Positions 9,825-31,865 of a stretch of 64,000 bases of DNA are shown here, piece after piece. The stretch spans positions 1 to 64,000 of the forward strand of contig JAGSHB010000011.1 of assembly GCA_023954815.1 (NCBI GenBank). Direction: 5' to 3'. Position 1 is the first letter of the stretch; each line of letters begins with the position of its first letter. A program made the position numbers and the translations under genes. The stretch comes from Myxococcales bacterium (GTDB taxonomy: Bacteria > Myxococcota_A > UBA9042). The notes below the pieces were generated by a model. It worked only from the letters and a program-made list of their open reading frames with translations. It was not told the DNA's origin and searched no databases.

Positions 9825-9886
9825 AATAGAAAAGAAAACTAGCAGCGTGCTGCGGCAGTAATTTTGGTGACGCCGCACGCTGCTAG
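9825..9886 (-). terminator. Terminator of the giant surface-protein gene (repeat family copy A)
   Basis: On the minus strand, CTAGCAGCGTGCGGC pairs with GCCGCAGCACGCTGCTAG (two extra bases bulged), followed by TTTTCTTTTCTATT. The TAG stop codon of the giant gene lies inside the stem. The same stem-loop, ungapped over about 55 bases, ends the gene at 36671. Confidence 0.85.
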
Positions 9887-15800: not shown

Positions 15801-18800
15801 GGCCGCTCGCGGTCGCAGGTTCGACATTGACGTCGGCCTTGGATTTTTCCTGTTTGAGCTTCATACGCAGCGAGCTGGCGACGTAACTCAAACCCTCCGG
15901 CAGCAATCCGCGCAGTACGCCGCCGCCTTGCCCCGTGAGCGGATTGGCGGCGATGGCACGGTTGGCCCCGTTTTCAATGGCGATGGTGCCGTGCACGACC
16001 TCGCCGACGAGGGCTCTGGTCTTGCTCAAGTGCATCGAGATCTTGATCGCATCCGTCAGCGCATCGATCGGCAAGTGATTGTGACGCGGGGTCGGTCTTC
16101 CGCCGGCATGGTCGGTCTTGCCCGTGCCCCCTTGCAGAGAAAAGCGGGTGAAATAGCGGGGAAGCTGGCCGATGGTCGGCAGCGCCTCATCCACCACAAG
16201 GCCGGCGCCGGTTAGCAGCGCGACGGTCGGTTCAGCGGCTCTGCGGGTCGACGGATAGGCGTACGGCATGCCACCTACACTCAAGCTCAGGCGGTAGTTA
16301 CGGCCATGACTCGGCGCGAAGAGGTAGGCGCCGGTCCCATCGACCCGCTGGCCCTGCTGACCTTCTGGCAGATCGCTCGCCGCGACCAACGTGTTCGGCG
16401 CGATTGGATCGGTGGCGTCGTAGTACAAGAAGGCCCGAATTCCAGCGACGGCCTGGCCAGTACGCGCGTCGTAGATGCGGCCAGTGGGCTTGAGTGCCAC
16501 GTCTCGCCTTCGCGTATCGCCTGCAGTGACCTCAAACAGCCCCTCGTGAAACACAGTTCCGCCCGGTGACCGGACTTCGATACGACGCTCACCTGTGGGG
16601 ACCTGGGTCAAGCGGTAGCTGCCGTCCGCTTTGGTCAACGCTGACACCGATGGGCCGGTTTCGCCCTTGGGTGGGGACACAATGACCTGCCAACCATCGA
16701 AGGTGAGGTCTTGGCCCGGCTGGAAGGTGTTGTCTGTGAGCCCTTGATCTTCGAAGACGACGCCGTGGAGGACTCCCTGGCCCTCGGTAGCGCCGACGAT
16801 GACGCAGGCCGGCTTGCTGGTGACCGATTGCATCGTTGCGACATTGCAGACGGACAGACCGTCGGCCGCGTTGCCGACGACGGGCACGCGGAACGTGAGC
16901 TGTACGCTTTCCCCATCGACGACGGTCAAATCGCTGACGTTTAGCGTACCTGGTTGCCCGTTGCTGCCCGGCTGCAGGTCCCATTTGGCACCCGTCGGCA
17001 CCAGGACATCACTCACTTTGGCCGACAGCCCTGCTGGCAAGACGTCACTCAAACTGACGCCACTGACCGTCTTGTGACCGCCATTGATCAGCACAATCGT
17101 GTAGCGCAGTACATCGCCTGCTTCGACTTGGCCGCCGTTTTCGTCTTGCACCGTCTTGGCGATTTGGAGCACAACTGGCGAACCTGCAACGGCGGTTACG
17201 GTTGGCTGGTTGCCGTTGCTGTCGTCGCCATCTACATCACTCGGCTCAGGCGACAACCCTTTCGCTGTGACGATCGCTTGATTGCTGACCGTCCCTGGCG
17301 CGTCGATGCGTACCCGGAACGTGATCTGCCGTTTGGCTTTGGCGGCAAGGGAGCCGAGCACAACGGCGAGATTTTCGGTCTTTGCATCATAGGCGCTCGC
17401 GTCCCCATCAGAGGCGTCCGTCATCTTCACACCATCGACGGTGGTGGAGCTGCCGATGTAGGTCACACCTTTGGGCATGGGGTCGTTGACCGTGATGTCG
17501 TCAGCCGGGCTATTGCCGGAATTTTCAACGGTGAGCACGTACAAGAGCTCCTCGCCGATATCCGCCTCGCCATTGCCGTCTGCGTCCAGCAGCTTCACCG
17601 TCTTGTGGAACTGCCGGAGGCTGGCGCCACTGCCGACTGTGAGTTGCGCTGGGCCGACGGGCGTCGGCGAGACATTTGTCGCAGAAGCGGTGGCGATGTT
17701 GCTGATCACCGTGCCGTCGAGCACATCGGAGAGGACCCGTGTTTGGAACGTCACGATGGCGGCATTGCCGACGCCGGGTTGCAGGACGCCGTCCGGCTGC
17801 CCCAGACCGTTGACCGTCAGCCCGGCGACGACGGGGCTCATGCCCTGAACATCGGCTACAGGCTGGCCATTGAGCTGTGTGGTGCCGGGCACATACGCCA
17901 TCCCAGCGGGAATCGGATCGGAGATAACGACATCTGCCAGCGGCTGCTGGGCGGTCGCGATGACGGTGAGGCGCCAAGTGACGGTGTCGCCTACGAGCAG
18001 CGGCGCGCCGTTGTCGTCCTTTGCGGTCTTGGTGGACTGGCCGAGGGCCGTAGCCACTCGGACCGAGACACTGGTGGGGTCATCCGGCGTCTGCGTCGTC
18101 GGGTCGTCGCTCGGCGTTGGACCAGCCATGGCGTCTGCTACGGCGAACGCTTGGTTGTCGATCAGGGTTCCGTCGCTCACCGTTGCGCCTACGCGGACAT
18201 CGAACTCGACAGTCGCCGAGTCGCCCGGCTCGATGAGCGCCAAAGAGCTGTCGCCTTGCCACGTGATCTTGCCGTCGGCGATCTTGCCGTTTTGCCCCAC
18301 GGCGACGAGCTCCACCTGGGCTGGCACGGCGTCGGTAATCGCCACTTGGTGCGCTGCGGCTTCGCCGGTGACAGCGACTGTGACCCGGTAACGCAGCAGG
18401 TCGAGCGGCTCCACTTTGCCGCCATTGAGGTCGACGACCACCTTCTGAACGTCCAGCACCGGAACGGACAAGATCGTGATTTTTGCGGGCTTTGAGCTGT
18501 AGGGCAGCTTCGTTTGGCCTTCGCGTGCCGTGATGACAGTCGATGCTTCACTGCCGTTCGGCGCCGTCGATTTGACCCGCAGCACCACGTCGAGCGTCGC
18601 CGCCTGTCCGACTGGGATGTCCTTGAGTGCTGGCACTTTCGCAGGCTCGAAAACCACCACTTTGGCCTTGGTGTCGAACGTCCCGCCGCCTGCGTCCGCA
18701 ACCTCGAAGAGCGCCGTATCCACCGGAATCTGGACGGCTGTATTCGTCGCTGCAAACGTGCCTTGGGTTGCGATGGTCGCCCGCAAGGTGACGGTGTCGC

Positions 18801-21800
18801 CGGGCTTGAGTGGGTCGGTCGCGGGCGCCTTCGGAATGTAGGCGGCGTCGACACTCAACGTGGGGTAGTCGACTGTAATTTCAACCGTGTTGGAGCTCTT
18901 CGGGGCGAGGCTCGTGGCCTGGGCGCTCGCGATATTGACCAGTTTTCCACCCGGAGCGGTGCCGGCGGCAACCTTGGCTTGCAGTGTCACCGTGACAGTT
19001 TGGCCGGCGGTCAATGACGCGATGGGCCACTGGGCCACCTTGCTGTTCGCGCCGCTGCCGAGGCTGCCGCCCGACTCAACCGCAATGTCCGTCACGGCGA
19101 CTTTGCTGAGGTCATCTTTGATAAGGAGCGCCGCTGCCGGTGCATTGCCCACATTGGCGACGGTGATGCTGTACCGCACGCCATCACCCGGAAATAGCTG
19201 CTTGCCTGTGACGTCTTCGACCGTCTTGCTGACCTTCAAGATCGCCCGCTTGACCACGGTTAGCGGCGGTCCCGTGACCTGCACGGGAGCCGTCAGCTCC
19301 TTCGGCTGCATCGACGCCGTCGGCGTGTAGACAAAACCATCCGATAGCGAGCCCTTCACCTTGCCGCGAAGTACGAATTTCGCGGTGCCCCCCGCCGCTA
19401 GGGATGGCAGCGTCCAACTCGCCACACCACCGATGATTGTGCCCGGTGTGGCCAGCTGGATATCGGACAAGAGTGCGCCAACCGGCAGACTGACGGTGAG
19501 GTCGGTCGCAGCGACTTTGCCGGAGTTGACAGCCAGAAGCTCCAAACGAACCACGTGGTCGGCACCCGTTTGGCCCACCTTGAGCAGCCAGCCGGTCTCG
19601 TCGACAGCGGTGACGAGGGAGGTCTCCAGGCGCGGTTTGGCGTCCACGGTCACGGAGATCTGCGGCGGCGTCGTGATCCCTGGAATCAGTGCTGTGACGG
19701 TGACTTTGGCGCCGTTGGGTAGGGCGGGTTTCACCGTCGCATTGAAGCGAATCTGCACGTCACCACCGGGGCTCACGCTGATCAGTGGGACGGACCAATC
19801 GATCGCATCACCTGTCACCACACCGCCGTCAAAAGGCACCAGGGCAGTCAATTGGGTCGACGAGATCAGGGCTTGGACCTTGGTCGCAGTGGCGATCGCG
19901 TCACCGGTGTTCTTGAGCGTCAACGTGTAGGTCAACACATCACCGGGCTCGACGGTGCCGCCGTTGATGTCTGAGACGCTCCACGCACTCCCAGACAGAT
20001 CAGATTTTGCAGTCACCTTGACGGTCGTGGGATCGCGTTGGGCAGTGGCGAGGTCGGCGTCTGTCAGTGTAGCCGTCGCCATGCCTTTCGCTTTGATTTG
20101 CGCCTGATTTGCGATGATCGCGCCATCGACTTGCGGTGATTTTACGCCGGTTGTGTAGACCAACGTCGCGCCGCCGCCGGGGGCGATATCACCCAGGTCC
20201 CACGTGGCCACGCCGCCGGCGAATTTACCGCCGTTGGACAGCTTTACGTCAGTCAGTCGCTTGTCGATCGGATCGACCACCACCACGTCACGCGCGATGG
20301 CGTCACCTTGGTTCTTGAACGTCACTGTCCACGTCAGCACGTCGCCGGGTTTGACGTCCCCACCATCGTCATCTTTGACGGTCTTGGTCGCGTCACTGAA
20401 ATCAACCTTACTGATGATTGTGACGCGCGTCGGGTCCTGCTGTGCTGGTGTGGTTGGATCGTCGGATTTGGCGGCGGCGGGGGCGCCCGTCCACTGAGCA
20501 GTCGCTTGATTGTCCACGGTGAGGCCATCGTCGAGCGCGGTCTTCACCTTCGCGGTGAACTCGTAGGTCAACACGGTCCCTGGAGCCATGGTCGCCGCTG
20601 CCGGCCACGCGATGATGCCGGTGTTGGCGTCGTAGGTTCCGCCGCTTTGAGCAGCGATATCAGTCAGTAGAGGGCTGACTTTGTCCGAGACCACCACTTG
20701 CTTCGCCGAGTCGTTGCCGCTGCTCGTCAGCTGGATTCGGTAGCGTAGGGCCGTCTCAGGTTTGACCATGCCGCCGTTGAGCTTGGCACCGGTCGCCCCA
20801 TCAAATACGTCCTTGATGAGTGTCAGGTTCGCCTGACTCGTGACCGCAAAGCAGGTCGGCTCTCCGTTTGCGCTTGGCTGGGTGCCTGGCGGCGAGGTCT
20901 TCACCGTCGCCGCTACGTTGCCCGCTCCGACGATCGCCTGGTTGCAGATTTCAAGGCCGTTGGCGAGCGGTGAGGTGACCTTCGCCGTCACCGTGACTGT
21001 TTGCTTGGCACCTGGCTGCACCGTGCCGAGCGCCCACGAGGCCGTGCGGGTGGTGGCGTTGAACGTGCCGCCATTGTTGACCTTCACATCGACCAGTTCC
21101 TTGGGCAGGACGTCCGAGACCGTGACGTTGGAGCCGCTGAGATTCCCGCTATTTTCGACGACGATGGTGTACGTCACCGCCTCCCCTGCTGCGATGGTCT
21201 TTGCGCTGACTTGCTTGGTGCTGGCCGCAAAGTCCGGCAAATTTTCAACCGTTAGACTGACCGTATTGGAGTTGGCCGCAGACGGGCTCTCCACAAAGGT
21301 CGCCCCAGCGGCGTTGGTAATTGTGGTCTTGGTTGGCGTCTTCGGATCGATCGTCGCTCGGAAAGTCAGCGTTACAACCGGATCGCTGGGCACCAGATCG
21401 CTGATCGCGTTCCAAGTGATGGTCTTGGTCGCCGCATCGAAGCTGCCGTTGGTGACTTGAACCGCCGTCAGGTTGGGGTGGACGGCGTCGGTCAGCACGA
21501 TCTTGGTCGCCGGCGAGTTGCCGGTGTTGCTGACTGCAATCTTGAATTCGATGACATCGCCGCCCTGTGCCACACCACCGTTGAGATCGGTCAGCGACTT
21601 GGTCAGGGTGAGAATCGGAGCGGATTTTACCGCGAGCGTCGTCGGATCTTGTGTACCGGCCTTCTTCGGGTCGTCGCTGAGCATCGCGCCCGGCAGCCCA
21701 TCGCCAGTCAGCGTGACTTGGCTGGTGAGGACCTTGCCCTGCGCAATTACGGCCTTGAGCTTGCCGGTGACCGTGCGCACGATCTCAGGTCCACCCGGCG

Positions 21801-24800
21801 CCAGACTCGGCAGCGTCCATGTGACCTTTGTGCCTGAAATCACGCCGCCATCACTCGCTGAGGACAGCGCCAGATCGGCATCGAACGGCGCCGACAAGAA
21901 CACTTTCGACACGCTGCCCTTACCCGTATTTCGAACGCGCAGGGTGTAGGTGACAGTATCGCCCGGAGCCGCGTCGAGGGCCGGCGAGACCGTCCAACTG
22001 AAGGTCGATACATTCGGCGTTGCCTGGACCTTGACCGTTACTTCTAGGGGGATGGGCGCCTTCAGCTCCGGTCCGGTTACCGTCGCGATATTTGCGATGG
22101 CCGTGCCGTTGATGGTGTTCGGCTTGACCCGCGCCTCGAACGTCAGCACCCGCTTGCCGCCATCGGCCAGGATGCTGGGCACAGTCCACACCACGGCACC
22201 CGTCCCTGCGTCAACACTACCGCCGCCGGTCACATTGCCCACATTGTCGAGGACGGGAGAGATCGGGTCGCTCACCTTGAGGACGCCCGACGCCTGTTTG
22301 CCCGTGTTGATCAGCAATATCGTGTAGCGCAAGACGTCGCCCGGCTCGATATCGCCGCCGTTGAGGTCGACAACTGTCTTGCTCGACGTGGTCAGCGTCG
22401 GTCCCCCCGTCACCGTGAAATTGCCCGTCTGCACGAGCTTCGGTGGAGAGCCATCCGTTGGGCTCAACGTCGCGGAATTTGAAAACTGCGTGCCTGGCTG
22501 CACGGTCGCCTTGATCCGAGTCTTGAACGTGAACGATCGGGTCTGATTGGCCTTCACCAGGATATTGCTCGCCTGCACAGCGCCGCCCGCAAACGACAGT
22601 TCAGCATCTGGCGAGCCGATATACTCTAGCGCTGCCGGCAGGGCATCGAGGATGTTGAGTGTCACATCGCCAGGGCCCTGATTGACCACCGCAATGTTGA
22701 ACTGCATCTCGTCACCGGCGAGCAGCGGCGTGGTTGGGGACAGATCAAGCCCTTCTTTGCTCGATTGATTTAGATTGGCTGAGGCCAGCACCGTAAAGGT
22801 GGTCGCGTCGGAGTCTCCGCTGAGATTGGGGTTGTCGGTCTTGTAGGATTTGGCGCCCAGGGTCACAGCGCCCTGCACAGAGACTACGTGGCCATTGAGC
22901 GGCTTGATCCCCAGCGCGGTGAGCCCAGCGACCGTTTTCAGCGTGCCGGTGATCGTGATCTTGACCTTCGCGCCAGCGGCCAGCGGGATCTTGTCCAACT
23001 GCATGAACCCCGTGTTATTGCTACCGCCTTGAAGCTTGCTGGTGTTGTTCGCTCCCGCCGGCACCGTCGTCTTCGCGAAACTGACTTCCTTGGGGAAATC
23101 CAGCCGCACCTGGTCGATCACGAGACTGTTGGCAGAGGCATTTTCCAGGGTCATTTGCCACGTCACCACGCCGCCCGGAGAGACCTGCTGGGTCAGGGCT
23201 ACAAGCGAAGGCGTGGCGAGTTGTGCCGCGGTCACTTTGACCGATGTGACGTTGGTGCTGACGGTGTCCGAAAACGTCGAAACCGTGCCCTTGTATTGGT
23301 ACGAGACGACACCGTTGGACACAATCTCAGCGACGCCTGGCGTGGCCTTCACCTTCACTTTAAAGCTGATTTTACGGCTCGAATTGCCTCCAGCAGCGCT
23401 CGTCAGTGAACCCAAATTCAGGCCGGTCGCGATGGGACTGGTACCCGCAGTGTCCGGGATGGTCTTGCCCTCCACCAAGGTCGAGCCTGCGACGTACTCC
23501 GTTCCCTTGGGCGGAAAATTATCCAGCTTCATGGTGGTCGGATTGGCGTCGAGTTGGCCGTTGTTGAGCAGATCCAACGTATAGGTCAGCACCTCACCTG
23601 GCGCGGCTTCTGAAGCGTTAACCGTGAACTTCGTGATCGGATTCTTGAAATTGGGCGCGAGCCGGTTCACCTCAAGCAGGGTGTAGCCGTAGAGGACGAG
23701 TTCACCGTAGCCGTGCGCTCCTGCTGCCCCGCTAGGGTTGTTGGCCAGATTGCCGTCACCGGACGAGATCAGAATCGTCGCGCTCGTGTCCTTGGGTTTG
23801 ACCAAGTTGGAGACGTTGAACTGATCGAGATCGAGGCTTGTTTCGGGCGTGCTGTTGAAGATGTTGTTCGGGTTGTTGTTACCTGCCCCGCCCGTGAGTT
23901 TGGTGCCGTTAAACGAGATGGAGTCGTAGCAAGTGCCGCAAGGTGCGCTGTCACAGCCGCCGGAGGTCTGGTACGGCTCACCCAGGTGCTTGTCGCCCTC
24001 CATGGCGTAGTACATGAGCTCGGCTTGCGGAGGGTCACCTACAAAAAAGTCTTCGATCTTCAGCGACAGCTGACCCTTGGACGTCCGCCGTTCGTCGATC
24101 AGGACGAAGCCATCCCACAGGAAGACGTCGCGTTGGGTCGTGACGCTGAACTTGGTGTCGTAGATCACCACCAACGACCAGGATGCATGCCGCGCTTGGC
24201 AGTACGGATCCGACGGCGAACAGCAGACCGTCTCCTTAGCGCCTGGACAGTTGACCTGATTGGGTTTCTGCAGGTTTCCGCAATTCGTCGAAATCGAAGC
24301 AACTTTGGCGTTGATGCCTCCGACAGTGTACTGGCCGTTCCAGCTGTTGGCACCCGGGTGGGCGGCCATCAGCGAGGTTACGTCTTTGCGACAGTAGAAG
24401 TGTTTGCCAGCCTGCAACGGTGTGCCAGGGATGCCTTGGAGGATGCAGTTGTCGGCGGTCAGCTGGGATTGGAAACCGTCTGCAAGCTGAAATGAGGCGG
24501 TATTGTCAGCTTGTTCGCCGCCGATCGGGCCGTTGGCCGATCCACCCCAAAATAGGTACGCGGCCTTGATCACAGCGTCGGTCGGCAGTTTTTCGAAGCT
24601 TTGAACCGTGTCCGACGAGGCACTGAGCAGCTTGTTGTTGTAGCGGTAGTCGGTGAAGTTGGTGACGAGACTGGCGCCGAGCTGCACAGCCTTGCCGTAG
24701 ACACGCCATGATTGTGGCTTTGCGGGGTAGTTGCCGGCGACGACCGCGCTGGCGACAGCCGCGCTGAAGGTGAGCACAAGTAGGCTCAGTGCGGCGAGTT

Positions 24801-24882
24801 GCCTCGCATGTCGGCGTAGGTTCGTTCGGCGCGCCACGGCGCGATTCGGAAGACCCTGGTGTCGCGAGCGTCGAGATAGCAC
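9883..24882 (-). CDS. Giant (4,999-residue) DUF11-repeat protein with OmpA-like domain and C-terminal outer-membrane beta-barrel
   Basis: Domains in order. Signal peptide (about 1-50). A globular N-terminal domain to about 410 with roughly ten cysteines clustered between 140 and 330 and a WSLVVIYDTK motif, as in DUF3344-like heads. Seventeen DUF11-type repeats at about 414-2620, each with a variant of PGDxLxYTIxVxNxG. A SdrD B-like domain near 2700. An 18th DUF11-like unit near 2980. A second B-like domain near 3110 (CDANGNGWQDRGEQ). Ala/Pro/Lys linker at 3440-3565. A degenerate OmpA-like domain at 3730-3815. A Ser/Lys linker. An Ig-like domain at 3990-4060. Finally about 900 residues of alternating beta strands ending in IRVIGMY, a terminal-aromatic barrel signature. 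The start is GTG at 24882 with AGGAGGAC eight bases upstream. Probably an adhesin or surface stalk. It is last in a co-directional run; the kelch gene ends 39 bp upstream. Confidence 0.9.
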   Translation of the reverse strand: MLSRRSRHQGLPNRAVARRTNLRRHARQLAALSLLVLTFSAAVASAVVAGNYPAKPQSWRVYGKAVQLGASLVTNFTDYRYNNKLLSASSDTVQSFEKLPTDAVIKAAYLFWGGSANGPIGGEQADNTASFQLADGFQSQLTADNCILQGIPGTPLQAGKHFYCRKDVTSLMAAHPGANSWNGQYTVGGINAKVASISTNCGNLQKPNQVNCPGAKETVCCSPSDPYCQARHASWSLVVIYDTKFSVTTQRDVFLWDGFVLIDERRTSKGQLSLKIEDFFVGDPPQAELMYYAMEGDKHLGEPYQTSGGCDSAPCGTCYDSISFNGTKLTGGAGNNNPNNIFNSTPETSLDLDQFNVSNLVKPKDTSATILISSGDGNLANNPSGAAGAHGYGELVLYGYTLLEVNRLAPNFKNPITKFTVNASEAAPGEVLTYTLDLLNNGQLDANPTTMKLDNFPPKGTEYVAGSTLVEGKTIPDTAGTSPIATGLNLGSLTSAAGGNSSRKISFKVKVKATPGVAEIVSNGVVSYQYKGTVSTFSDTVSTNVTSVKVTAAQLATPSLVALTQQVSPGGVVTWQMTLENASANSLVIDQVRLDFPKEVSFAKTTVPAGANNTSKLQGGSNNTGFMQLDKIPLAAGAKVKITITGTLKTVAGLTALGIKPLNGHVVSVQGAVTLGAKSYKTDNPNLSGDSDATTFTVLASANLNQSSKEGLDLSPTTPLLAGDEMQFNIAVVNQGPGDVTLNILDALPAALEYIGSPDAELSFAGGAVQASNILVKANQTRSFTFKTRIKATVQPGTQFSNSATLSPTDGSPPKLVQTGNFTVTGGPTLTTSSKTVVDLNGGDIEPGDVLRYTILLINTGKQASGVLKVSDPISPVLDNVGNVTGGGSVDAGTGAVVWTVPSILADGGKRVLTFEARVKPNTINGTAIANIATVTGPELKAPIPLEVTVKVQATPNVSTFSWTVSPALDAAPGDTVTYTLRVRNTGKGSVSKVFLSAPFDADLALSSASDGGVISGTKVTWTLPSLAPGGPEIVRTVTGKLKAVIAQGKVLTSQVTLTGDGLPGAMLSDDPKKAGTQDPTTLAVKSAPILTLTKSLTDLNGGVAQGGDVIEFKIAVSNTGNSPATKIVLTDAVHPNLTAVQVTNGSFDAATKTITWNAISDLVPSDPVVTLTFRATIDPKTPTKTTITNAAGATFVESPSAANSNTVSLTVENLPDFAASTKQVSAKTIAAGEAVTYTIVVENSGNLSGSNVTVSDVLPKELVDVKVNNGGTFNATTRTASWALGTVQPGAKQTVTVTAKVTSPLANGLEICNQAIVGAGNVAATVKTSPPGTQPSANGEPTCFAVTSQANLTLIKDVFDGATGAKLNGGMVKPETALRYRIQLTSSGNDSAKQVVVSDKVSPLLTDIAAQSGGTYDANTGIIAWPAAATMAPGTVLTYEFTAKVKTALDDGLTVDNQATAQWTGAPAAAKSDDPTTPAQQDPTRVTIISKVDFSDATKTVKDDDGGDVKPGDVLTWTVTFKNQGDAIARDVVVVDPIDKRLTDVKLSNGGKFAGGVATWDLGDIAPGGGATLVYTTGVKSPQVDGAIIANQAQIKAKGMATATLTDADLATAQRDPTTVKVTAKSDLSGSAWSVSDINGGTVEPGDVLTYTLTLKNTGDAIATATKVQALISSTQLTALVPFDGGVVTGDAIDWSVPLISVSPGGDVQIRFNATVKPALPNGAKVTVTALIPGITTPPQISVTVDAKPRLETSLVTAVDETGWLLKVGQTGADHVVRLELLAVNSGKVAATDLTVSLPVGALLSDIQLATPGTIIGGVASWTLPSLAAGGTAKFVLRGKVKGSLSDGFVYTPTASMQPKELTAPVQVTGPPLTVVKRAILKVSKTVEDVTGKQLFPGDGVRYSITVANVGNAPAAALLIKDDLSKVAVTDIAVESGGSLGSGANSKVAQWPIASLTAGQTVTVTLQAKVAAGTAPGGKLVNIASAQATSLAPKSSNTVEITVDYPTLSVDAAYIPKAPATDPLKPGDTVTLRATIATQGTFAATNTAVQIPVDTALFEVADAGGGTFDTKAKVVVFEPAKVPALKDIPVGQAATLDVVLRVKSTAPNGSEASTVITAREGQTKLPYSSKPAKITILSVPVLDVQKVVVDLNGGKVEPLDLLRYRVTVAVTGEAAAHQVAITDAVPAQVELVAVGQNGKIADGKITWQGDSSLALIEPGDSATVEFDVRVGATVSDGTLIDNQAFAVADAMAGPTPSDDPTTQTPDDPTSVSVRVATALGQSTKTAKDDNGAPLLVGDTVTWRLTVIATAQQPLADVVISDPIPAGMAYVPGTTQLNGQPVADVQGMSPVVAGLTVNGLGQPDGVLQPGVGNAAIVTFQTRVLSDVLDGTVISNIATASATNVSPTPVGPAQLTVGSGASLRQFHKTVKLLDADGNGEADIGEELLYVLTVENSGNSPADDITVNDPMPKGVTYIGSSTTVDGVKMTDASDGDASAYDAKTENLAVVLGSLAAKAKRQITFRVRIDAPGTVSNQAIVTAKGLSPEPSDVDGDDSNGNQPTVTAVAGSPVVLQIAKTVQDENGGQVEAGDVLRYTIVLINGGHKTVSGVSLSDVLPAGLSAKVSDVLVPTGAKWDLQPGSNGQPGTLNVSDLTVVDGESVQLTFRVPVVGNAADGLSVCNVATMQSVTSKPACVIVGATEGQGVLHGVVFEDQGLTDNTFQPGQDLTFDGWQVIVSPPKGETGPSVSALTKADGSYRLTQVPTGERRIEVRSPGGTVFHEGLFEVTAGDTRRRDVALKPTGRIYDARTGQAVAGIRAFLYYDATDPIAPNTLVAASDLPEGQQGQRVDGTGAYLFAPSHGRNYRLSLSVGGMPYAYPSTRRAAEPTVALLTGAGLVVDEALPTIGQLPRYFTRFSLQGGTGKTDHAGGRPTPRHNHLPIDALTDAIKISMHLSKTRALVGEVVHGTIAIENGANRAIAANPLTGQGGGVLRGLLPEGLSYVASSLRMKLKQEKSKADVNVEPATASGPVLEVRRKHPASGQAVGLDLPAGARLTIRFQAIVDVRAKIGVQLTARAQLFDTSGGELSQRVHANLLVQPDPLLDRGTLVGKVFCDANGNGWQDRGEQGLGAARVYIDTGHYSDTDAYGRFHLMDIPPGNHLFKLDKQTLPPGSSLTTDEKRVLWVSRGVGLKLRFGVKCQLQTIQPDKVQLKLLRQEKQAPKQPGAGVIHVRGDVTKLTVQIDDGQLPMQSVRAALVKGGAKAPSPLPVAVTPVSWPRSQPLRIATKVVGQFATHRVDIRQLDDSNRLGAPVFARRFRGAPRSLMVVQVPADALVSGRRYAVRIKALTRYGAGAWSIWIPFEIPRLGAPPPLLKWRIGAPGRRVQINGNRVALKSDGQFDVWVKRPTSRRLLVSVRRRLGEGRDAYMTVSANMRRVKTPRISPLDKPPATAKTETVTPPTDATDSPAAKSALPAAAKTPAAAKTPADVVPAPDKPKATPAAAPATADKPVAKPTPKAKLGGSVAVRAPVRAAAKASPIAAPKSSLPVIPSRNPVGAAKAPAGKTAATPAETHQMVPIDLAGTSGVRIGGAQLTPVVRELLAQVPAGPIPLIDGQIAGQVVVQAKGIPSGAVSAAMILVDRSGKTRVRTPLSVPLPATFVWDAGRHERLNAGTYGAALEVMIKGQGGLVGWRSVPTTVALSGTSVKLVPAGEPDRVARATLFSADGRPTFSMKAWIDKTAGVIRKRTRRIAVLTVHSSAKGALGRTEGAARIISRRLRSAGVPANRLLVIPVGNRIADSDPQGSSLGPDRVEVRYRPMRVSSSRSGQRFVATPGLWVDSRVVMGKRNGDAPTTVRVRQKQATRVEQLFVDGRAALWLRTFAKPPGAPRTPTTPNRQDSSLAQFGSEVITDLKAELKQSATRAPTNSPAKAVEKTKKATVKAGANRGEKSGNTGKKPTETSKDKTLAKFDTHEVSRAEAGDVAAAQLSVTLPSNDKKLTSERLALRGRTVAGNTVTINGQQVTVQDDGRFHHMVKLPIGKSLVRIVAVDKAGHKATIERKVEVGQRSFFLMAIADTAMAQLGTKVHGMTDRTTIRAGNVLLHGRGAVYLKGRIQGKYLGFKNIRFTAHLDTAKNTDTEDFRSNLFDPERFYPVYGDGTTDVQDAQARGMLYVLVQADRSKLKLGNFRSGVHGFELLRYDRAMYGGYLEFNRVFKGGLDTHVKVFASQEDQQLSRRTDYLRGTGGSLFYLSNRDVLDGSEKVWLVVRDRDSNVELARIPQGRNNDYNIDYRQGRVVFKSPVNSAVDSFFAVGQAGQPGQHLAWNGHPVFVQVTYEARTPGATAGSNVGVQVREKVMGGRIEVGGSYVQESRSSASATTYRLAGAHAQVKVGKHSHVRAEYAYSQSRDSLVSVSDDGGLSFGQRPTTGGHLDSAISGHAVTVSAKADLRDLGKAFGFKPKARKSGKKGKKQYGEVTAYYKLVQAGFHSNGVLTEQGQQKIGVAGRMTLREHNTLNVRYDGILTGQRRDPFQGPGLSSTWGAGALSTSGSFTPVARQMVTLQDTQRMGRFTLMGAAHYMYGKSAAGTGIHSQTLGAGSAYKVSERLSLRAEQQFILGGDANQYRSKYLDHFMTVLGVDWKLTDDISLTVSERLGWGGQNSTMAGLRTQLSKDSSLYLQQRLEDTYQTGRPMSATVIGAESRYGKDKLSRAYGEYQVDALNAGRMNRATMGLGKRFVITPGLHLDAGYERSQTFSGPSGSLSRDTFSVGGQWLRSKVLKLTSRQEVRIDEGDKDRGGQRKVQLVSLNALTFKVGHDVEVFARTNYLRTENQTTDRTDAETLQATTGAAWRPVSHNWLSVLGKYTHLIEKRPAAMADGGASERSVKHIVSFEPIVETPWKLQLSHKFAWRRAMERMADSPLAVSDTWLFISRLGYHVGSQVDLAAEYRLLSTTLTSQSEHGALIEASYILRKMLRVGAGYNFTHFVQTSAGDIVRDQGGFFIRVIGMY
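16930..23640 (-). repeat. Coding array of 17 DUF11-type repeats
   Basis: Inside the giant gene, units of about 115-160 codons recur with PGDxLxYTI followed some 40 residues on by DxxPxxLxxV. Many units begin with a KTVxDxNGGxVxPGD variant. The units are diverged, not near-identical, so the array looks old rather than recently expanded. One further unit lies apart near 15,900. Confidence 0.85.
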
Positions 24883-24921: not shown

Positions 24922-26640
24922 CTACTTAGGGTTGTATAGCCGGATCGTCGCACTCGCTTTCAGTCCCGAGTCACCGCTGGACGCTCCGCCGGCGATGAAC
25001 ACGTGACCTGTGGACAGCGATGCGGCCTGACCAAACACGGCGCCACCGTTGGGTAGCTCGTTACTCGACCACTCCCGCATTACCTTGCCACTGGTCGAAT
25101 CATAGCTCAGGAGTTCGCCGCTCGCTATGGTCTTACCCTGTGCATCGACGCCGCCGGTCACGATCACCTGTCCTCGTTGGGCGCCAGCGGTCGACCATCC
25201 CATGATCGGGGCGCCTCGCGGAGCCTGAAGCTGCTGCACAGAGTCGACCCACTTGCCTGTTTCAATGTTGAAAACGTCGACGCGGGTCATCGGCTTCTTC
25301 TTCTGGGTGTCTTCAAAACCGCCAACAATGTAAACGAGGTTGTACCGGGGCGTCGTGTTGTGCACATAGGCTGCGGCGGCTTGCGTTCTGCCGCCACCAT
25401 TGAGTTCACGAAGCAGCGGTTGCCATTTGTACTCGCTGTAGCCCGGCTGCGACTTCCAGGCATTGCACTCGGCGTCGCTTGCACATGTTCCGCTTGGGAG
25501 GCAGCAGGTGATCTTGTTGTTATGTTTGTGCGCGACATTGCCGCTGCCATCATAACGAATCACCTCAAAGTTGTTGATGGTGCCGTTGTCGTTCTCTCCA
25601 CCGATGAGCATCATGTAGCCGCCGTCTTTCTCGGGCAGTCGCACAGTCGCGTGGTTCCAACGCGGAATGCTGAGCTCTCCGAATGCGAGGCGACCCTGCT
25701 CCGGATGCCAGATCTCCCATGTGCGCGACGCCTGACTCTCGGGGCCCTTGCCGCCGATCACCATGAAGTAGTTATTGTTGTCGAACATCCGAGTCACCGT
25801 ATGGTGAGCGCGTGCGAACTGCAGGTTGGGCTTGTCGCTGGCCACAGCCTGTTTGATCTTGGAGTCCTTGGGGTCGAAGTATTCGACCATTTTGCTCGCC
25901 TCTGGCCCCGATGCACCCAGGGTGTAGCCACCGGTGAGGGCGACGATGCCGTCAGAACCCCTCGCTGCCGCCATGAACGCGCGCCCCTGCGACAAGGACG
26001 TGGAAAATGGCGCTGCCGATAGATCGATCAGCTTGCGTGTGTCGATGTCGTAGCGAAGCGGGACCGTCTTGAAGTTGCCCCAGCTCTTCACGTCGTGCAC
26101 ATCCGTTGCGCCTGCGACAGGATCGGCCCCACCTGCGATGAGTACTTGCTCGTTGTTCATCGCGATCACGGATGCGCCAACGCGTCCATCGGTGATCACT
26201 TCCTGGTTGGCGTTGTTGAACGGTGCGCTGAACGCGTTGGTCTTCGTCACGAATGCGTGGACCAGAAACGTCTCGCCGTGCCGGACGTCTTTGGGCACCG
26301 TCCGACCGCGACCGCGCACCGGAAAGGTGGGCTGGCCATTGACGTCCTTGCTGTACAGCTCGATCCGCATCCCCCGACCGTAGCCGTAAGGCACTGCCGG
26401 TAGCGTCAACGGCATATTCGGCGAGTATGGTTTGACGACTTGCAGCTTATCGGCCGGAATATCAGGCCCTTCAGCGACCATTGCCACGAAAGCGGTCTCG
26501 GGATCATCAAAGGGGTTGTCGCTCAATGGCGCCTTGATTGCGACGGCGAGTCCCTGAACGGGTTCACCCGGAGGTGCAGCGCATGCCGCCGCAGCAGTAG
26601 CGATGACACAGAGGAGAGAGAGGCGAGTCAGCGTCTTCAT
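24922..26640 (-). CDS. Kelch-like beta-propeller lipoprotein
   Basis: A 572-residue lipoprotein: signal peptide with lipidated Cys20 (TAAAAC). From about residue 150 it shows repeated units of the kelch type, with GG pairs at strand ends (VIVTGGVDAQG, VFIAGGASSGDSG, MLIGGENDNG, FMVIGGKG), which suggests a six- or seven-blade propeller. Such proteins bind polymers or proteins at the cell surface. The ATG at 26640 is preceded by GGAGG. It lies 12 bp after the PEGA gene and 39 bp before the giant gene on the same strand, so cotranscription is likely. A role as a partner of the giant protein is inference. Confidence 0.8.
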   Translation of the reverse strand: MKTLTRLSLLCVIATAAAACAAPPGEPVQGLAVAIKAPLSDNPFDDPETAFVAMVAEGPDIPADKLQVVKPYSPNMPLTLPAVPYGYGRGMRIELYSKDVNGQPTFPVRGRGRTVPKDVRHGETFLVHAFVTKTNAFSAPFNNANQEVITDGRVGASVIAMNNEQVLIAGGADPVAGATDVHDVKSWGNFKTVPLRYDIDTRKLIDLSAAPFSTSLSQGRAFMAAARGSDGIVALTGGYTLGASGPEASKMVEYFDPKDSKIKQAVASDKPNLQFARAHHTVTRMFDNNNYFMVIGGKGPESQASRTWEIWHPEQGRLAFGELSIPRWNHATVRLPEKDGGYMMLIGGENDNGTINNFEVIRYDGSGNVAHKHNNKITCCLPSGTCASDAECNAWKSQPGYSEYKWQPLLRELNGGGRTQAAAAYVHNTTPRYNLVYIVGGFEDTQKKKPMTRVDVFNIETGKWVDSVQQLQAPRGAPIMGWSTAGAQRGQVIVTGGVDAQGKTIASGELLSYDSTSGKVMREWSSNELPNGGAVFGQAASLSTGHVFIAGGASSGDSGLKASATIRLYNPK

Positions 26641-26652
26641 CGGGCGCCTCCG

Positions 26653-28290
26653 CTAAGGCTGCACGCGAGCGTCGACCTTGAAATTGGGCGACGGCTCGGG
26701 TGTTTGGTTACTCAAAATGACCGCGGTTGCGACGCCGCCAGCGACGACTGCACCGAGTGCTGTCCAGAACCACCAGGTCTTGACGATGCTCTTGTCCTGA
26801 TCGGTGTTCTTCAGCAGGCCGGCGTAGGGATCAGTCTTGGGCTTGGTCGCTGGGCCGTATGTCGGCGCGGTTGGACGAACGCTCGGGCTCACCGGTTTTT
26901 TTGCTGGCGTGCCCGAGCCCGCAGTCGTGCTTGGCGGTGTGGTGCTCGGCGGCGTGGTGCTCGGCGGCGTGGTGCTTGGCCGCGTGGTTGGCGTGGTTGT
27001 CGCCAGCGGCGGTGGTGTACGAACAATGGCAGGTGCGCCCGCGGCTGCGCGTGTTTTGGTGTAGACTGCGGGCTGCGCAACCACCTCTTTCTTGGATGGG
27101 AACGCCTGGATCGCACGGCGGATATGCCCCTCGGCCTCGAGGATCTTCATCTGCATGTTGCTGAGGTTGCTGTTGAAGGGCACCATGTCCAACGCTGCGA
27201 ACTTCTTCGCCTTGCTGTCAAAAAGGAACATGTGCAGCTCTAACCCGCGCACATTCTTCGACACCACCGCATACAACAGGTAGCGCGCCTGAATCTGGCG
27301 GCTGAACATCAGCGAGTAGTTGCGGACTCGACGGGTATGAAAGCCGCCCTTTTGCGCGAATGGCGCGATCTTCGACAGCTGCACCGACACATGAATGTTG
27401 TGCTTCGGGTTGGGCATCATCTCCAGACGCGCGTTAACCGAAATACGCCGACCACGGACCGTGAAGGACTTACCCCACGGCTCCGCTTCCTTGTGGCGTA
27501 CCTGAACGTAGTGCGTGCCTGCGTCGAGGTCCTTGCTGACCGCAGGTGCGGAGCCCAGCTTGACGCCGTCTACATAGACCTCGGCGCCGGGCGTCTTGCA
27601 CTCGACCTGAATCGTACCTTTCTTCCGCTTCGCCAACCGACCACGAACGACCGTGAGCAGCTTGTGCATCTTCTTCTGGCCGCGATTGGTCACGAGCGTT
27701 GGCTGCAGCACAACGGCCTTGGTCAACAAGGTCGCCGCAGAACCACGCTTGCCCAACATGAGTTGCGCTTGGCTAGCGCGGGCATAGGCGTCCACAAGTT
27801 TGGTGAAGTCGACCAACTCCACAAAGTAGCGCTCATACCGCTTGATGGCGGCGCTGAGTAGCTTGGCCGCCGTCTTCAGGTTCTTCTTTTCGTCAATCAT
27901 CACGCGGGCAGCGAGCAGCGCTTGGTCTGCCTTGGCGAGATTCTTGGTGGCCTTGTTGGAGCGCTGCGTCGCGCGGGCTGAGCGCACGAACTTCGGCCGA
28001 CCGGACTTCACCACCGACTGCGGCGTGAGCTGGACGACGCTGCCGGCTTCGATCATGGCGCGCAAATATTCTTCAATCCGGGCCGTTGCGACGGTACCGA
28101 CACCGTCACGTCGCGCCAGGGCGATGATTGCGAGTTGGTCCTTGCCAGCCATCTGGGCAAAGGCTTGGCCAGAGACAAAGTCGATGCCAATCGGTCGCAA
28201 CGACACTGGGGCTACCAGGGTCGTGAACGCGAAACTCACCAACGCTATCCAGGCTAGGGTACGCGACCACATGCTGTGGGCAGGGTTCAC
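26653..28290 (-). CDS. PEGA-domain envelope protein with C-terminal transmembrane segment
   Basis: A 545-residue exported protein. A signal peptide (about 1-46, ending GQAFAQ) is followed by a helical, TPR-like region (100-215), then a PEGA domain at about 220-290 (GAEVYVDGVKLGSAP, GTHYVQVRHKEAEPWGK) and a beta-rich part. A Thr/Pro linker (residues of about 425-480) contains TTPPS units encoded by 15-bp repeats. A hydrophobic helix lies near the C-terminus (WWFWTALGAVVAGGVATAVI). PEGA domains are surface-layer-like beta folds. The start is GTG at 28290 with AAGGAGG six bases upstream. A shorter relative, with the same TPR-plus-PEGA core, is encoded at 56178-57380. It sits 12 bp before the kelch gene. 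Confidence 0.8.
   Translation of the reverse strand: MNPAHSMWSRTLAWIALVSFAFTTLVAPVSLRPIGIDFVSGQAFAQMAGKDQLAIIALARRDGVGTVATARIEEYLRAMIEAGSVVQLTPQSVVKSGRPKFVRSARATQRSNKATKNLAKADQALLAARVMIDEKKNLKTAAKLLSAAIKRYERYFVELVDFTKLVDAYARASQAQLMLGKRGSAATLLTKAVVLQPTLVTNRGQKKMHKLLTVVRGRLAKRKKGTIQVECKTPGAEVYVDGVKLGSAPAVSKDLDAGTHYVQVRHKEAEPWGKSFTVRGRRISVNARLEMMPNPKHNIHVSVQLSKIAPFAQKGGFHTRRVRNYSLMFSRQIQARYLLYAVVSKNVRGLELHMFLFDSKAKKFAALDMVPFNSNLSNMQMKILEAEGHIRRAIQAFPSKKEVVAQPAVYTKTRAAAGAPAIVRTPPPLATTTPTTRPSTTPPSTTPPSTTPPSTTAGSGTPAKKPVSPSVRPTAPTYGPATKPKTDPYAGLLKNTDQDKSIVKTWWFWTALGAVVAGGVATAVILSNQTPEPSPNFKVDARVQP
26924..26983 (-). repeat. 15-bp tandem repeat inside the PEGA gene
   Basis: Four direct 15-bp units, two of them identical (GTGGTGCTCGGCGGC on the plus strand), encode consecutive TTPPS-like pentapeptides. 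In-frame gain or loss of units would change linker length without breaking the frame. Confidence 0.7.
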
Positions 28291-28406: not shown

Positions 28407-29333
28407 TCACTTGCCGGGGCGTGGAGGCCGCACTCGCACTTTTTTGCCCGGTTTTCCGGGCTGCTTTGGCGACGCGCTCCCGCGATCTCGCTGTGCGATG
28501 GGCGACGGTGACTTGCGGGCAACTACCGCGATTCCGGCGGGTACGCGCACCGCGCTGCGAACGCTTGCCTTCGCCCCGCCCCATGCCAGATCGAGCATCG
28601 TCGACGATCCGCCGTCGAGATTGAGCGCGCCCTTGAGCCCCAACCCTCGCTGACCGTGGGGCCGAGCGAGGAAATTCGCGAAGTCTTGTAAACCGACAAC
28701 GCCGGACGTGACGACGACGTAGACGTGGCCCTTCGCGTCAAAGCCGAGAGCTGTACGGCGGGCGAGGCCCGGTTTGAACTGCAAAGGCGCGCCATCGACA
28801 ACCAGTCGAGGACCGCACTCCGCGGCAAAATCCAGTCCTTCAGGCTCTTGCCACTGACGGGCGTGCTGCAACCCTGGGCCATCAGCGGCGATCGTGAAGA
28901 CGCCATGATCCACACGCCGCAGACGAGACAGCTGTTTGCCCGCCGAGACCATGAGGCCGAGCGGCTTGAACTTGGGGTCGAAGTAGATGCCGTTGATGGC
29001 TGCGGCCGCATTGCGTGCCTGGCGGAACTCACCTGCGTCACCGAGTTGGCCGCCGAGCTCTCGCGCCGCGACGTGCCGCAGCGCCCAAGACGAAGGATCA
29101 AGCCGTAAAATGTGGGTGGTGACAGGAGGGCCTTCGCCATAACCGGCAGCAACTTTGGCGTATTTCAGACCCGTGGCCAACGAGCGCAGCGAGACGTATT
29201 CGGCCGTTTCACTCTTCACGCATCCGGCTAGCACGGACAACGAGCAGATGAGCCCGAGCGACACGATCGACCGGGGCAACCCGCGTGTGATCGTTCCATG
29301 GGGCAGCCCGCGATTCGCTCGCCGGTCGTCCAT
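28407..29333 (-). CDS. Phosphodiester glycosidase (NAGPA-domain) lipoprotein
   Basis: A 308-residue lipoprotein with lipobox LAGC (Cys38). The family's signature NLDGGSSTML is near residues 239-248, with the preceding AINGIYFD and GPRLVVDG blocks in the right order for the phosphodiester glycosidase family (the domain of uncovering enzyme and of several bacterial exopolysaccharide proteins). The predicted activity is hydrolysis of a sugar phosphodiester in cell-wall or surface glycan. The C-terminal 35 residues are basic and Pro-rich. Its ATG directly follows the TAG of the upstream fusion gene (TAGATG), with no intervening base, so translation is very likely coupled. Confidence 0.85.
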   Translation of the reverse strand: MDDRRANRGLPHGTITRGLPRSIVSLGLICSLSVLAGCVKSETAEYVSLRSLATGLKYAKVAAGYGEGPPVTTHILRLDPSSWALRHVAARELGGQLGDAGEFRQARNAAAAINGIYFDPKFKPLGLMVSAGKQLSRLRRVDHGVFTIAADGPGLQHARQWQEPEGLDFAAECGPRLVVDGAPLQFKPGLARRTALGFDAKGHVYVVVTSGVVGLQDFANFLARPHGQRGLGLKGALNLDGGSSTMLDLAWGGAKASVRSAVRVPAGIAVVARKSPSPIAQRDRGSASPKQPGKPGKKVRVRPPRPGK

Positions 29334-31865
29334 CTAGAGCAGGCTGAGGATCTTCTGCTTGAGAGGCTCAGCGTCCTCTTCCGGCTTAAATCCGGTGTGG
29401 TAGTAGACGATCTTGCCGCTCTTATCGATGAGGAAGCTCGCGGGCATTGAGTAGACCATCATCTTGCCCATCAACACGGAGTCTGGGTCCGTGATGACCG
29501 GGAAGTTGGCACCGAACTTCTTAGCGAACTCCAGGCTTGGATCCGGCGTGTTGTCGACACCGATCGAGATGACCTGGAAGCCCTTTGAGCCCAGCTCTTT
29601 TTGGTAGCGAACCAAGTAGGGGAACTCTTTCTTGCACGGGCCGCACCACGATGCGAAGTAGTTCACCAACGTGACCTTGCCCTTGAACTTGGACGTGTCG
29701 ATGGTCTTGCCGTCGCTCGACTTGGCGACGAACTTCGGCATCATTTGGCCCTTCATGGTCTCGATGACCGGACGGAGGTTCGACGCGGACACGGAGGCGC
29801 TCTTGACGTTACTATCGGCGCAGCAGCGGAAGCCCGTTGTGTGGTTGCGACGGCCAATTCCTGCCGAGAACGCGCGCTGATTGCACGCGGCGCGCTCAGT
29901 GCTGGATGCGTGCCCACCCATGAGCGTTGCCTTGTCTTTGGCGCCGCCGACCCACTCGCTGATATTGCCCGAGAGATCGAAAATGGCGCTCGCGGTGCGG
30001 CACTCCTTCTTCGAACCGGCCGCAATGGCGTTGCCGTGGTACTTGTCGCCCTGATCGTTGCAGGTGCCAGCCGAGTAGAACTTGCCGTAGGGGTACATCG
30101 ACCCCTCGACCGCGTCGTCGCCGAACATGCCGTTGTTGTTGTTGTCGACCGCTGGCGCGCCGGCGCAGGCCGTGACCCACTCCTGCTCGGTGCACATGCG
30201 CTTTCCAGCCTTTTCACAAGCGCTCTTGGCGTCGAGCCAACTCACCCGTGCGGGTACGGCGCCAGGCTTGCTGACAGCCTTGCCGCCCTTGTCGATGCTA
30301 CCTTCGTAGGCGTCCATATAGAACGTCTTGCCGCCGGCGTTGGGCACGGCGATCATGGAGGTGCCGTCCGATACCGCCGCCATCTTCTTAGGTGCGCCGC
30401 CGGCGACCTTGCCGCCCGATTCGGCTGCCTTCAGCGCCTCGTCGATGTGGTACTTGAAGATCGCTTTGGAGCCTGAACCCGTCACGAGTCGGCCGTTGAT
30501 GTACGTCCTGGGTGTGCCCCAAATGCCGGCCTTGTAGGCGACGGTGATGTCGTCTTTGATCGCCTGCTTGGTCTTGGGATCTTTCATGCAGATCCGGAAC
30601 TTGGTCATGTCCAGCTTGAGCTTCTGGGCGTACTTGTCCAGGTGGAACTCGGCCAGGGCCTGCTGGTTGGCGTACAATTCGTCGTGCATCTCCCAGAACT
30701 TACCCTGGCGACCGGCGCAACGTCCGGCCCAAGCCGCTTCGCATGCGTTCGGGTGCTTGTCGTAGCCCGACATCTGGGGGTTGCAGCGCCCGTTCATCGG
30801 GAAGTTCTTCATGATGAAGCGCACCGACTTGCCCTCGTAGGCTTTCATCACACCGTCGAGGGTGAGCGCCAAGTAGCGGCAGTACGAGCACTGGAAGTCG
30901 GCGACCTTGATGACCGTGACCTTGGCATCGCGCGGGCCGTGAACGAATTCACAATCCTCGTCGATGGGCCACTGCACCTCTGTCCAGCCGTCTTCCTTCG
31001 TCTTCTTGCCACCGATCTTGGCAGCGCGAGGGTCGATGTTCGGGCCATCGGCGCAGTCGCGGCCAGTCGGTACCTTGCGTGGCGGAGCCTTGACCGGCTC
31101 GGTGCCGCCCGCTGTATTGCCGCCGGTCGGCGGGGTGACAACGACAGGACCGGGGCCGCCGTCGGTCCCCTGAGGGCAAAACGGCAGGGCGGGGTTCTTC
31201 ACACACTCGAGAGCCTGCGCCTCCATGGATTTCAGCCATTGACCGGTGCCGATGTAGCCAGCCATGCCGACCACGACGAGCACCATCACCGCTTGACTCA
31301 CCGGTGCTTTGAAGGCCTTGATGGCGTCAATGCTAGTTGAAAATGCGTTGCCGATGCTCTTCGGGCCTTGGCTGATCGCCAGGAGGGTGCTGGCGATGGC
31401 CACGCCATACAGGCTGAGGCAGTACACGCAGAGGAAGCCGATCTTCTCGACCATGATGTAGCCCATGTACATCGCGTCGACGACGGTCAACACGGCGATC
31501 ATGGCGACGCCCGCCATCGCAATGCGGCCCTTTTCACGGGTCTCCTCGTCTGTAGAGGTGGTGCCTTGGATGCCCAGCCACGTCAGGAAAGCCATGGTGG
31601 CGTACGTTGGCAGGGCCCAAAAGGCGCTCGGCATACCAAACATCGTGCTGTAGTCAGACGTGTTGACCGCGTCGCAGTTGAGCTTGCCACCGAAGTTGCA
31701 GCTGGTGGACACGGCGAGTCCGGACTGCAGGGCTAGTTTATTGCGGACCAGATACAGCGCGATTCCGAGACCCACGGCGAGCACCGCCAAGAGGGCGTAA
31801 AGCAGGTTGGGGTTGTCGGGTAACCCTTTGTGCTCATTGGTGCTTGGTGCCTCTGCCTTGCTCAT
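29334..31865 (-). CDS. VKOR-DsbA-FGE-TlpA four-domain disulfide oxidoreductase fusion
   Basis: One 843-residue polypeptide with four recognisable modules. Residues of about 17-210: a VKOR-like membrane domain with loop cysteines Cys56/Cys64 and the redox pair CVYC at 146-149, plus hydrophobic helices. 235-270: a Pro/Gly linker. 295-485: a DsbA-like thioredoxin domain with CSYC at 326-329 and the cis-proline loop GTP at 450-452. 500-685: a formylglycine-generating-enzyme-like domain (EGSIDKGG, ACEKAGKRMCTEQEW, NISEWVGG, GFRCC). 705-843: a TlpA/ResA-type domain with WCGPC at 740-744 and SMPAS at 806-810. VKOR would reoxidise DsbA using quinone; TlpA-type domains usually reduce. VKOR-DsbA fusions are known; I do not know this four-part order. 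AGGAGA precedes the ATG at 31865. Confidence 0.9.
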   Translation of the reverse strand: MSKAEAPSTNEHKGLPDNPNLLYALLAVLAVGLGIALYLVRNKLALQSGLAVSTSCNFGGKLNCDAVNTSDYSTMFGMPSAFWALPTYATMAFLTWLGIQGTTSTDEETREKGRIAMAGVAMIAVLTVVDAMYMGYIMVEKIGFLCVYCLSLYGVAIASTLLAISQGPKSIGNAFSTSIDAIKAFKAPVSQAVMVLVVVGMAGYIGTGQWLKSMEAQALECVKNPALPFCPQGTDGGPGPVVVTPPTGGNTAGGTEPVKAPPRKVPTGRDCADGPNIDPRAAKIGGKKTKEDGWTEVQWPIDEDCEFVHGPRDAKVTVIKVADFQCSYCRYLALTLDGVMKAYEGKSVRFIMKNFPMNGRCNPQMSGYDKHPNACEAAWAGRCAGRQGKFWEMHDELYANQQALAEFHLDKYAQKLKLDMTKFRICMKDPKTKQAIKDDITVAYKAGIWGTPRTYINGRLVTGSGSKAIFKYHIDEALKAAESGGKVAGGAPKKMAAVSDGTSMIAVPNAGGKTFYMDAYEGSIDKGGKAVSKPGAVPARVSWLDAKSACEKAGKRMCTEQEWVTACAGAPAVDNNNNGMFGDDAVEGSMYPYGKFYSAGTCNDQGDKYHGNAIAAGSKKECRTASAIFDLSGNISEWVGGAKDKATLMGGHASSTERAACNQRAFSAGIGRRNHTTGFRCCADSNVKSASVSASNLRPVIETMKGQMMPKFVAKSSDGKTIDTSKFKGKVTLVNYFASWCGPCKKEFPYLVRYQKELGSKGFQVISIGVDNTPDPSLEFAKKFGANFPVITDPDSVLMGKMMVYSMPASFLIDKSGKIVYYHTGFKPEEDAEPLKQKILSLL

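Follow-up and report, generated by a model that had tools for sequence, protein, structure and literature searches.

A VKOR-DsbA-FGE-TlpA fusion gene of the Myxococcota may encode a single-chain disulfide machine

Results

A complete four-domain gene at the head of an operon

The window analysed here, meaning the whole stretch of 64,000 nucleotides, carries on its minus strand a gene in which VKOR, DsbA-like, FGE/SUMF-like and TlpA/ResA-like domains follow each other, together with four further genes of the same operon:

29334..31865 (-): VKOR-DsbA-FGE-TlpA fusion gene, complete, 843 aa plus stop
31380..31799 (-): VKOR domain, residues 23-162 (PF07884, 2.8e-18)
31197..31301 (-): predicted fifth long helix, residues 189-223 (AlphaFold2; hydropathy peak at 181-199)
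30444..30950 (-): DsbA-like domain, residues 306-474 (Thioredoxin_4, PF13462, 8.3e-21)
29796..30356 (-): FGE/SUMF-like domain, residues ~504-690 (PF03781, 1.9e-9; SUMF2, 2.4e-11)
29337..29756 (-): TlpA/ResA-like thioredoxin domain, residues 704-843 (Redoxin PF08534, 1.7e-27; ResA, 4.5e-25)
28407..29333 (-): operon gene 2, NAGPA-domain lipoprotein-like protein (phosphodiester glycosidase; PF09992, 1.8e-21)
26653..28290 (-): operon gene 3, PEGA-domain protein, 545 aa (PF08308, 1.4e-9; synteny)
24922..26640 (-): operon gene 4, Kelch-repeat lipoprotein-like protein, 572 aa (PF13964, 8.4e-16; synteny)
9883..24882 (-): operon gene 5, exported DUF11-repeat protein, 4999 aa (DUF11, 4.7e-127)

The fusion frame is open at exactly 29334-31865, with an ATG start and an AGGAG about 10 bases before it. 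An earlier sequence-only reading had described a single 843-residue frame with four domains, and our Pfam search bore this out with four non-overlapping domains that each scored over the curated cut-off. The motifs which that reading had named are all in place: CVYC at residues 146-149, CSYC at 326-329, the GTP cis-proline loop at 450-452, GFRCC at 678-682, WCGPC at 740-744 and SMPAS at 806-810. Among 69 homologues, 20 of the 24 cysteines of the protein are essentially invariant, and the remaining four (221, 230, 271 and 305) lie between the VKOR and DsbA cores.

Considering that the source genome is a draft in 314 contigs, such a frame could in principle come from neighbouring genes that were joined by a sequencing or assembly artefact. 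The genome search for the same domain order, which had been proposed as a check, argues strongly against it: all 21 other genomes of the family carry the fusion end to end as a full-length frame (about 48-83% identity), and the uninterrupted frame is also found in paralogues and in homologues outside the family. We rejected the artefact as having practically no chance of being correct.

The source genome itself holds two paralogues of the same domain order that are 37-38% identical to the fusion, and strong matches were found in 49 of 284 genomes representing a spread of the phylum, five of which (G068, G091, G137, G159 and G245) have the protein only in a separate-gene form that is described below. 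Three loci that carry organism names come from metagenome bins labelled "uncultured Myxococcales bacterium" or "Deltaproteobacteria bacterium" (L033, L034 and L035); they are identical over the TlpA domain to G013, G041 and G016, respectively, and NCBI places L033 and L035 in the Myxococcota. A set of 23 genomes from other phyla and from cultured myxobacteria (Myxococcus, Corallococcus, Hyalangium, Nannocystis, Polyangium and others) did not contain the full architecture; at most the DsbA part was matched.

Several variants were seen alongside. One locus (L158:1992-4985 (+)) encodes a five-domain VKOR-DsbA-DsbA-FGE-TlpA protein of 998 residues whose first DsbA domain has a CGHC site, and another family, f16 (L130:2339-3181 (-), L132:992-1804 (-), L128 and L133), has an extra thioredoxin-like gene directly downstream of the four-domain gene. 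Proteins with two to five tandem DsbA-like domains are encoded on contigs of the source genome (C113, C291, C58, C231, C92 and C273; L004-L008) and at L037, L039, L041, L043, L050, L057 and L063.

The VKOR and DsbA domains form a probable oxidase core

The VKOR domain matches PF07884 at 66.8 bits against a cut-off of 27.5. Its catalytic pair C146/C149 lies in the CVYC motif (bases 31419-31430) and is accompanied by the loop cysteines C56/C64 and by S70; in an alignment of 65 homologues, C146/C149 are conserved in 100%, C56/C64 in 97% (every row with a letter there) and S70 in 95%. The loop cysteines have the eight-residue spacing seen in human VKORC1. AlphaFold2 placed long helices at residues 19-47, 80-103, 107-142, 147-165 and 189-223, while hydropathy alone gave four membrane segments; the predicted fifth helix would place all later domains in the periplasm.

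The DsbA-like domain has its CSYC active site at bases 30879-30890 and its cis-proline at P452. These two cysteines (C326/C329) and P452 are conserved in 69 of 69 homologues, as are C361, C375, C383 and C426, and across the same homologues the active site always reads Cx(Y/F)C and the residue before the cis-proline is Thr or Ala. A sequence search of solved structures led from this domain to DsbA-family chains, and its AlphaFold2 model, mostly a confident fold, matched the solved structures 3gyk (TMt 0.83) and 4pwo in Foldseek; its thioredoxin fold carries the helical insertion of the DsbA family.

A VKOR-DsbA fusion of Clostridium sp. complements E. coli dsbA dsbB (PMC12453122), and this precedent, together with the fusion to VKOR, suggests that the DsbA domain of the Myxococcota protein acts as a net oxidase. 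Since CxYC/CxFC sites and a Thr or Ala before the cis-proline are also found in isomerases, it may itself reshuffle bonds. Taken on its own, an oxidase core made of VKOR and DsbA appears very probable, with electron flow and quinone use read across from the known families.

The FGE-like domain lacks the catalytic cysteines of FGE

PF03781 (FGE-sulfatase) matches residues 539-640 at 38 bits against a cut-off of 23.3, and this match covers the core of a larger domain. In the first AlphaFold2 model, built from a shallow alignment, this domain was not resolved; it was resolved once relatives from virus contigs had been added, and when refolded alone it reached a pTM of 0.83, with human FGE as the best Foldseek match (E 6e-6, TMq 0.54). 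When the PDB was searched by sequence, SUMF2, the paralogue of FGE, scored best.

Eight cysteines (C550, C558, C567, C602, C622, C661, C681 and C682) are 100% conserved among the 69 homologues. In a profile alignment, C550, C681, C567 and C661 correspond to the cysteines of the two structural disulfides of human FGE (C218-C365 and C235-C346). The virus-contig relatives show how these positions vary: across 38 complete rows, which are related to each other, C550 and C681 are present together in 31 and lost together in 7, C567 and C661 are present together in 32 and lost together in 6, and C558, C602, C622 and C682 are never lost. This joint loss supports the same two structural disulfides as in human FGE, keeping in mind that the rows are related and the events not independent, and it would leave C558, C602, C622 and C682 for two further disulfides. 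More broadly, 50 virus-classified contigs (L198-L247) encode SUMF-like domains with a GKR(L/M)CTxxEW signature and mostly eight or nine cysteines, and one subgroup is missing precisely the two pairs that form the structural disulfides.

An FGE fold seen by both sequence and structure could point to an active formylglycine-generating enzyme fed by the thioredoxins, and oxidation of cysteine to formylglycine was one of the options raised when the sequence was first read. Alignments with human FGE and 38 relatives gave no counterpart of either catalytic cysteine (C336 and C341) and the domain spans only about 190 residues, which, together with SUMF2 being its best PDB sequence match, makes such an enzyme very improbable. 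We rejected this option, considering formylglycine formation by the domain unlikely on the basis of the two missing catalytic cysteines. The domain would then be non-catalytic and would most likely serve either as a docking site for clients or partners or as a rigid spacer; the holding of a ligand or client, also raised in that first reading, is thus possible.

The last domain resembles TlpA, ResA and CcmG

The Redoxin/AhpC-TSA Pfam match of the TlpA domain covers residues 704-831. The CGPC site (bases 29634-29645) is followed by E747, at the position of ResA E80, and by the cis-proline P808. In 56 homologues, C741/C744 are conserved in 100% and E747 in 54, and the site reads WCxxC. A sequence search of solved structures led from this domain to ResA/DsbE, and the AlphaFold2 model, again mostly a confident fold, matched 3gl3 (TMt 0.93) and ResA (TMt ~0.89) in Foldseek. 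The idea of a four-domain order with an oxidising VKOR-DsbA half and a TlpA/ResA-type last domain is supported by domain, structure and conservation matches alike.

Proteins of the TlpA/ResA/CcmG type are normally maintained in the reduced state by DsbD or CcdA. One CcmG-type member from Helicobacter shows isomerase activity and relies on CcdA to stay reduced (PMC4491210). Given the type of the domain, this precedent and a DsbD homologue in the genome (see below), an isomerising or proofreading role is plausible. It would come at a price: with an oxidase and a reductase in the same chain, a short-circuit is to be expected unless the two are kinetically insulated. If the TlpA domain is reducing, the chain must avoid a futile cycle, and the FGE-like domain could serve as a spacer or client dock.

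One may instead picture an all-oxidising relay, in which the TlpA domain is a second oxidant that is re-oxidised by VKOR or DsbA, so that the protein would donate disulfides through two arms and do no proofreading. Most members join the TlpA domain covalently to the oxidase and have the thioredoxin-like WCGPC site, and the pairing of DsbA with TlpA is general in other Myxococcota, where tlpA follows multi-DsbA genes; many of them have a four-DsbA gene with a tlpA gene directly after it. The domain is however of the ResA/TlpA/CcmG type, whose characterised members are usually kept reduced, it nearly always has the glutamate equivalent to ResA E80, and DsbD is found in all 15 good-quality genomes; we consider this relay rather unlikely.

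A separate-gene form links TlpA to the other domains

Ten loci from other families of the phylum have TlpA as a gene of its own, placed immediately upstream of a gene for VKOR-DsbA-FGE and in the same orientation; the products of these separate tlpA genes mostly start with a signal-peptide-like stretch. In a tree of the DsbA-FGE part, the separate-gene forms make up one clade (support 98) that is nested among the fused forms; it counts 11 rows, including one that is cut by a contig end. Several genomes (G060, G083, G198, G238 and G269) have both forms. The gene pair starts with TlpA and the fusion ends with it, so simple read-through does not turn one form into the other. In a TlpA tree, the separate TlpA proteins stand beside the fused ones and not with other TlpA proteins, with weak support.

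L159 looked "split" in the tree and is in fact cut by its own contig end. Homologues with "one TGA" and a match of an NCBIfam (seleno)lipoprotein model to the DsbA domain raised the suspicion of a selenoprotein form; selenocysteine was rejected, as the TGA or TAG is an ordinary stop after the FGE-like domain and tlpA is a separate upstream gene. One full-length alignment was excluded, single TlpA sequences having aligned onto the DsbA domain.

The adjoining genes in these ten loci suggest that TlpA is functionally linked to VKOR-DsbA-FGE. In the fused form, the FGE-like domain always separates DsbA from TlpA, and where the genes are separate it remains part of the VKOR-DsbA protein and not of TlpA; strong matches of its type in the source genome are confined to the three fusions. 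Because of this confinement and this partnership, the domain probably works with the oxidase half.

The same observations bear on the view that two independent machines are merely tethered, VKOR-DsbA making disulfides and TlpA serving cytochrome c or copper-site maturation or a similar task. The nearest solved relatives of the TlpA domain, ResA and DsbE/CcmG, would fit this view, as would a clade in which TlpA is a gene of its own. Against it, VKOR, DsbA, FGE-like and TlpA stay together, whether fused or as adjacent genes, and no cytochrome or copper maturation gene was seen in the conserved operon; such a division of tasks seems unlikely to us.

Gene content and operon suggest a main disulfide source with a client nearby

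The source genome has exactly three VKOR domains, all within the three fusion copies, and no DsbB was found in it. Across the 22 family genomes, which are drafts, VKOR is found in 22 and DsbB in none, and in ten of them the fusion is the only place where VKOR occurs. Since DsbB is missing and VKOR is confined to the fusion in these ten genomes, the fusion is the best candidate for the main de novo source of disulfides, and, judging from the gene content of drafts, it probably has that role there.

DsbD_TM was detected in 20 of the 22 family genomes, the good-quality ones included. The only DsbD-type protein of the source genome (G000:C290:3720-4349; L116:1477-2805) has a DsbD membrane domain and a C-terminal thioredoxin with a CANC site, and is without an N-terminal alpha domain. 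Its gene does not adjoin the fusion; the protein might pass electrons to the TlpA domain.

The fusion is the first gene of a conserved operon: most family genomes have the NAGPA, PEGA, Kelch and giant-protein genes after it, all on one strand. The NAGPA gene begins directly after the fusion stop, at a TAG-ATG junction. The giant 4999-residue protein, encoded by the last gene of the operon, has at least 11 scored DUF11 stretches. It also contains modules of the SdrD_B and glucodextranase-B-like kinds, and its C-terminus is perhaps barrel-like. Ten of its 16 cysteines fall within residues 146-318 and six outside, and eight cysteines of that region show at least 90% conservation across 21 genomes. 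We infer that this protein is a likely client of the fusion. It cannot be the only one, since neither the paralogues nor most of the copies in other families are located in the giant-protein operon.

Discussion

A model for disulfide formation and correction on one chain

The reading that we prefer is a membrane-anchored single-chain disulfide machine, consisting of a VKOR-DsbA oxidase, an FGE-like module that is stapled by disulfides and non-catalytic, and a corrective TlpA domain. In this model, client thiols would reduce the DsbA CxxC (C326/C329); the DsbA domain would be re-oxidised within the same chain via the VKOR loop cysteines C56/C64 and then C146/C149, the VKOR bundle would hand the electrons to quinone, and the re-oxidised DsbA domain would go on to oxidise exported proteins. 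The FGE-like domain may dock clients or partners or act as a rigid spacer without catalysis of its own, while the TlpA domain, probably fed with electrons by the DsbD homologue, would reduce or reshuffle wrong disulfides.

We put this complete machine forward as a hypothesis whose chances are about balanced. For TlpA we favour a corrective role, with moderate confidence, over the all-oxidising relay and over an unrelated reductive task. The domain identities, the invariant cysteines, the lack of DsbB, the operon and the separate-gene form are observations; the reducing direction of TlpA, DsbD as its partner, the identity of the client and the role of the FGE-like domain are conjectural. A more specific version, in which a quinone-driven VKOR-DsbA arm and a DsbD-driven TlpA arm form and correct bonds in one protein while the FGE-like domain holds the client and blocks the short-circuit, is a tentative and somewhat doubtful proposal. 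If true, this one protein would stand in for the oxidative and isomerising pathways that other bacteria keep separate.

The fusion suggests that one molecule may both make bonds and check them, and by joining an oxidase to a normally reducing TlpA-type domain it offers a natural test of how the two pathways can be kept apart. Several genomes seem to have no other oxidase of the DsbB/VKOR type, a likely client is encoded in the same operon, and the fusion provides a defined setting for the many non-catalytic FGE-like domains.

Comparison with known systems

In the textbook scheme, bacteria make and correct disulfides in separate proteins, so that neither process cancels the other. The DsbB-DsbA and DsbD-DsbC pathways of E. 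coli are the obvious reference: like them, the fusion has an oxidase arm and, presumably, a DsbD-fed corrective arm. In E. coli these arms are separate proteins that are kept kinetically apart, whereas in the fusion VKOR takes the role of DsbB and both arms are part of one polypeptide.

The TlpA domain shares the WCxxC site, the cis-proline and the Glu at the ResA E80 position with TlpA, ResA and CcmG (DsbE) proteins, including HP0377 of Helicobacter, and differs from them in being tethered behind an oxidase in the same chain. The FGE-like domain has the fold of FGE (SUMF1) and SUMF2 and the corresponding structural-disulfide cysteines (C550/C681 and C567/C661). Unlike them, it is shorter, is without the catalytic cysteine pair, is fused to redox domains and has four extra invariant cysteines (558, 602, 622 and 682).

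The literature searched, with subscription papers mostly outside it, contained VKOR-Trx and VKOR-DsbA fusions only and not the four-domain order, consistent with the initial impression that this order is undescribed. The closest relatives in architecture are the Synechococcus VKOR and the Clostridium sp. fusion (PMC12453122), in which a VKOR bundle and, after it, a periplasmic partner with a thioredoxin fold likewise share one chain. The four VKOR cysteines are the same, as is a predicted fifth helix that precedes the periplasmic part. Whereas those fusions have one thioredoxin-fold domain, the Myxococcota protein adds an eight-cysteine FGE-like domain and a TlpA/ResA-type domain, and its DsbA domain has four extra invariant cysteines; it is a member of the VKOR-DsbA fusion kind to which two domains have been added.
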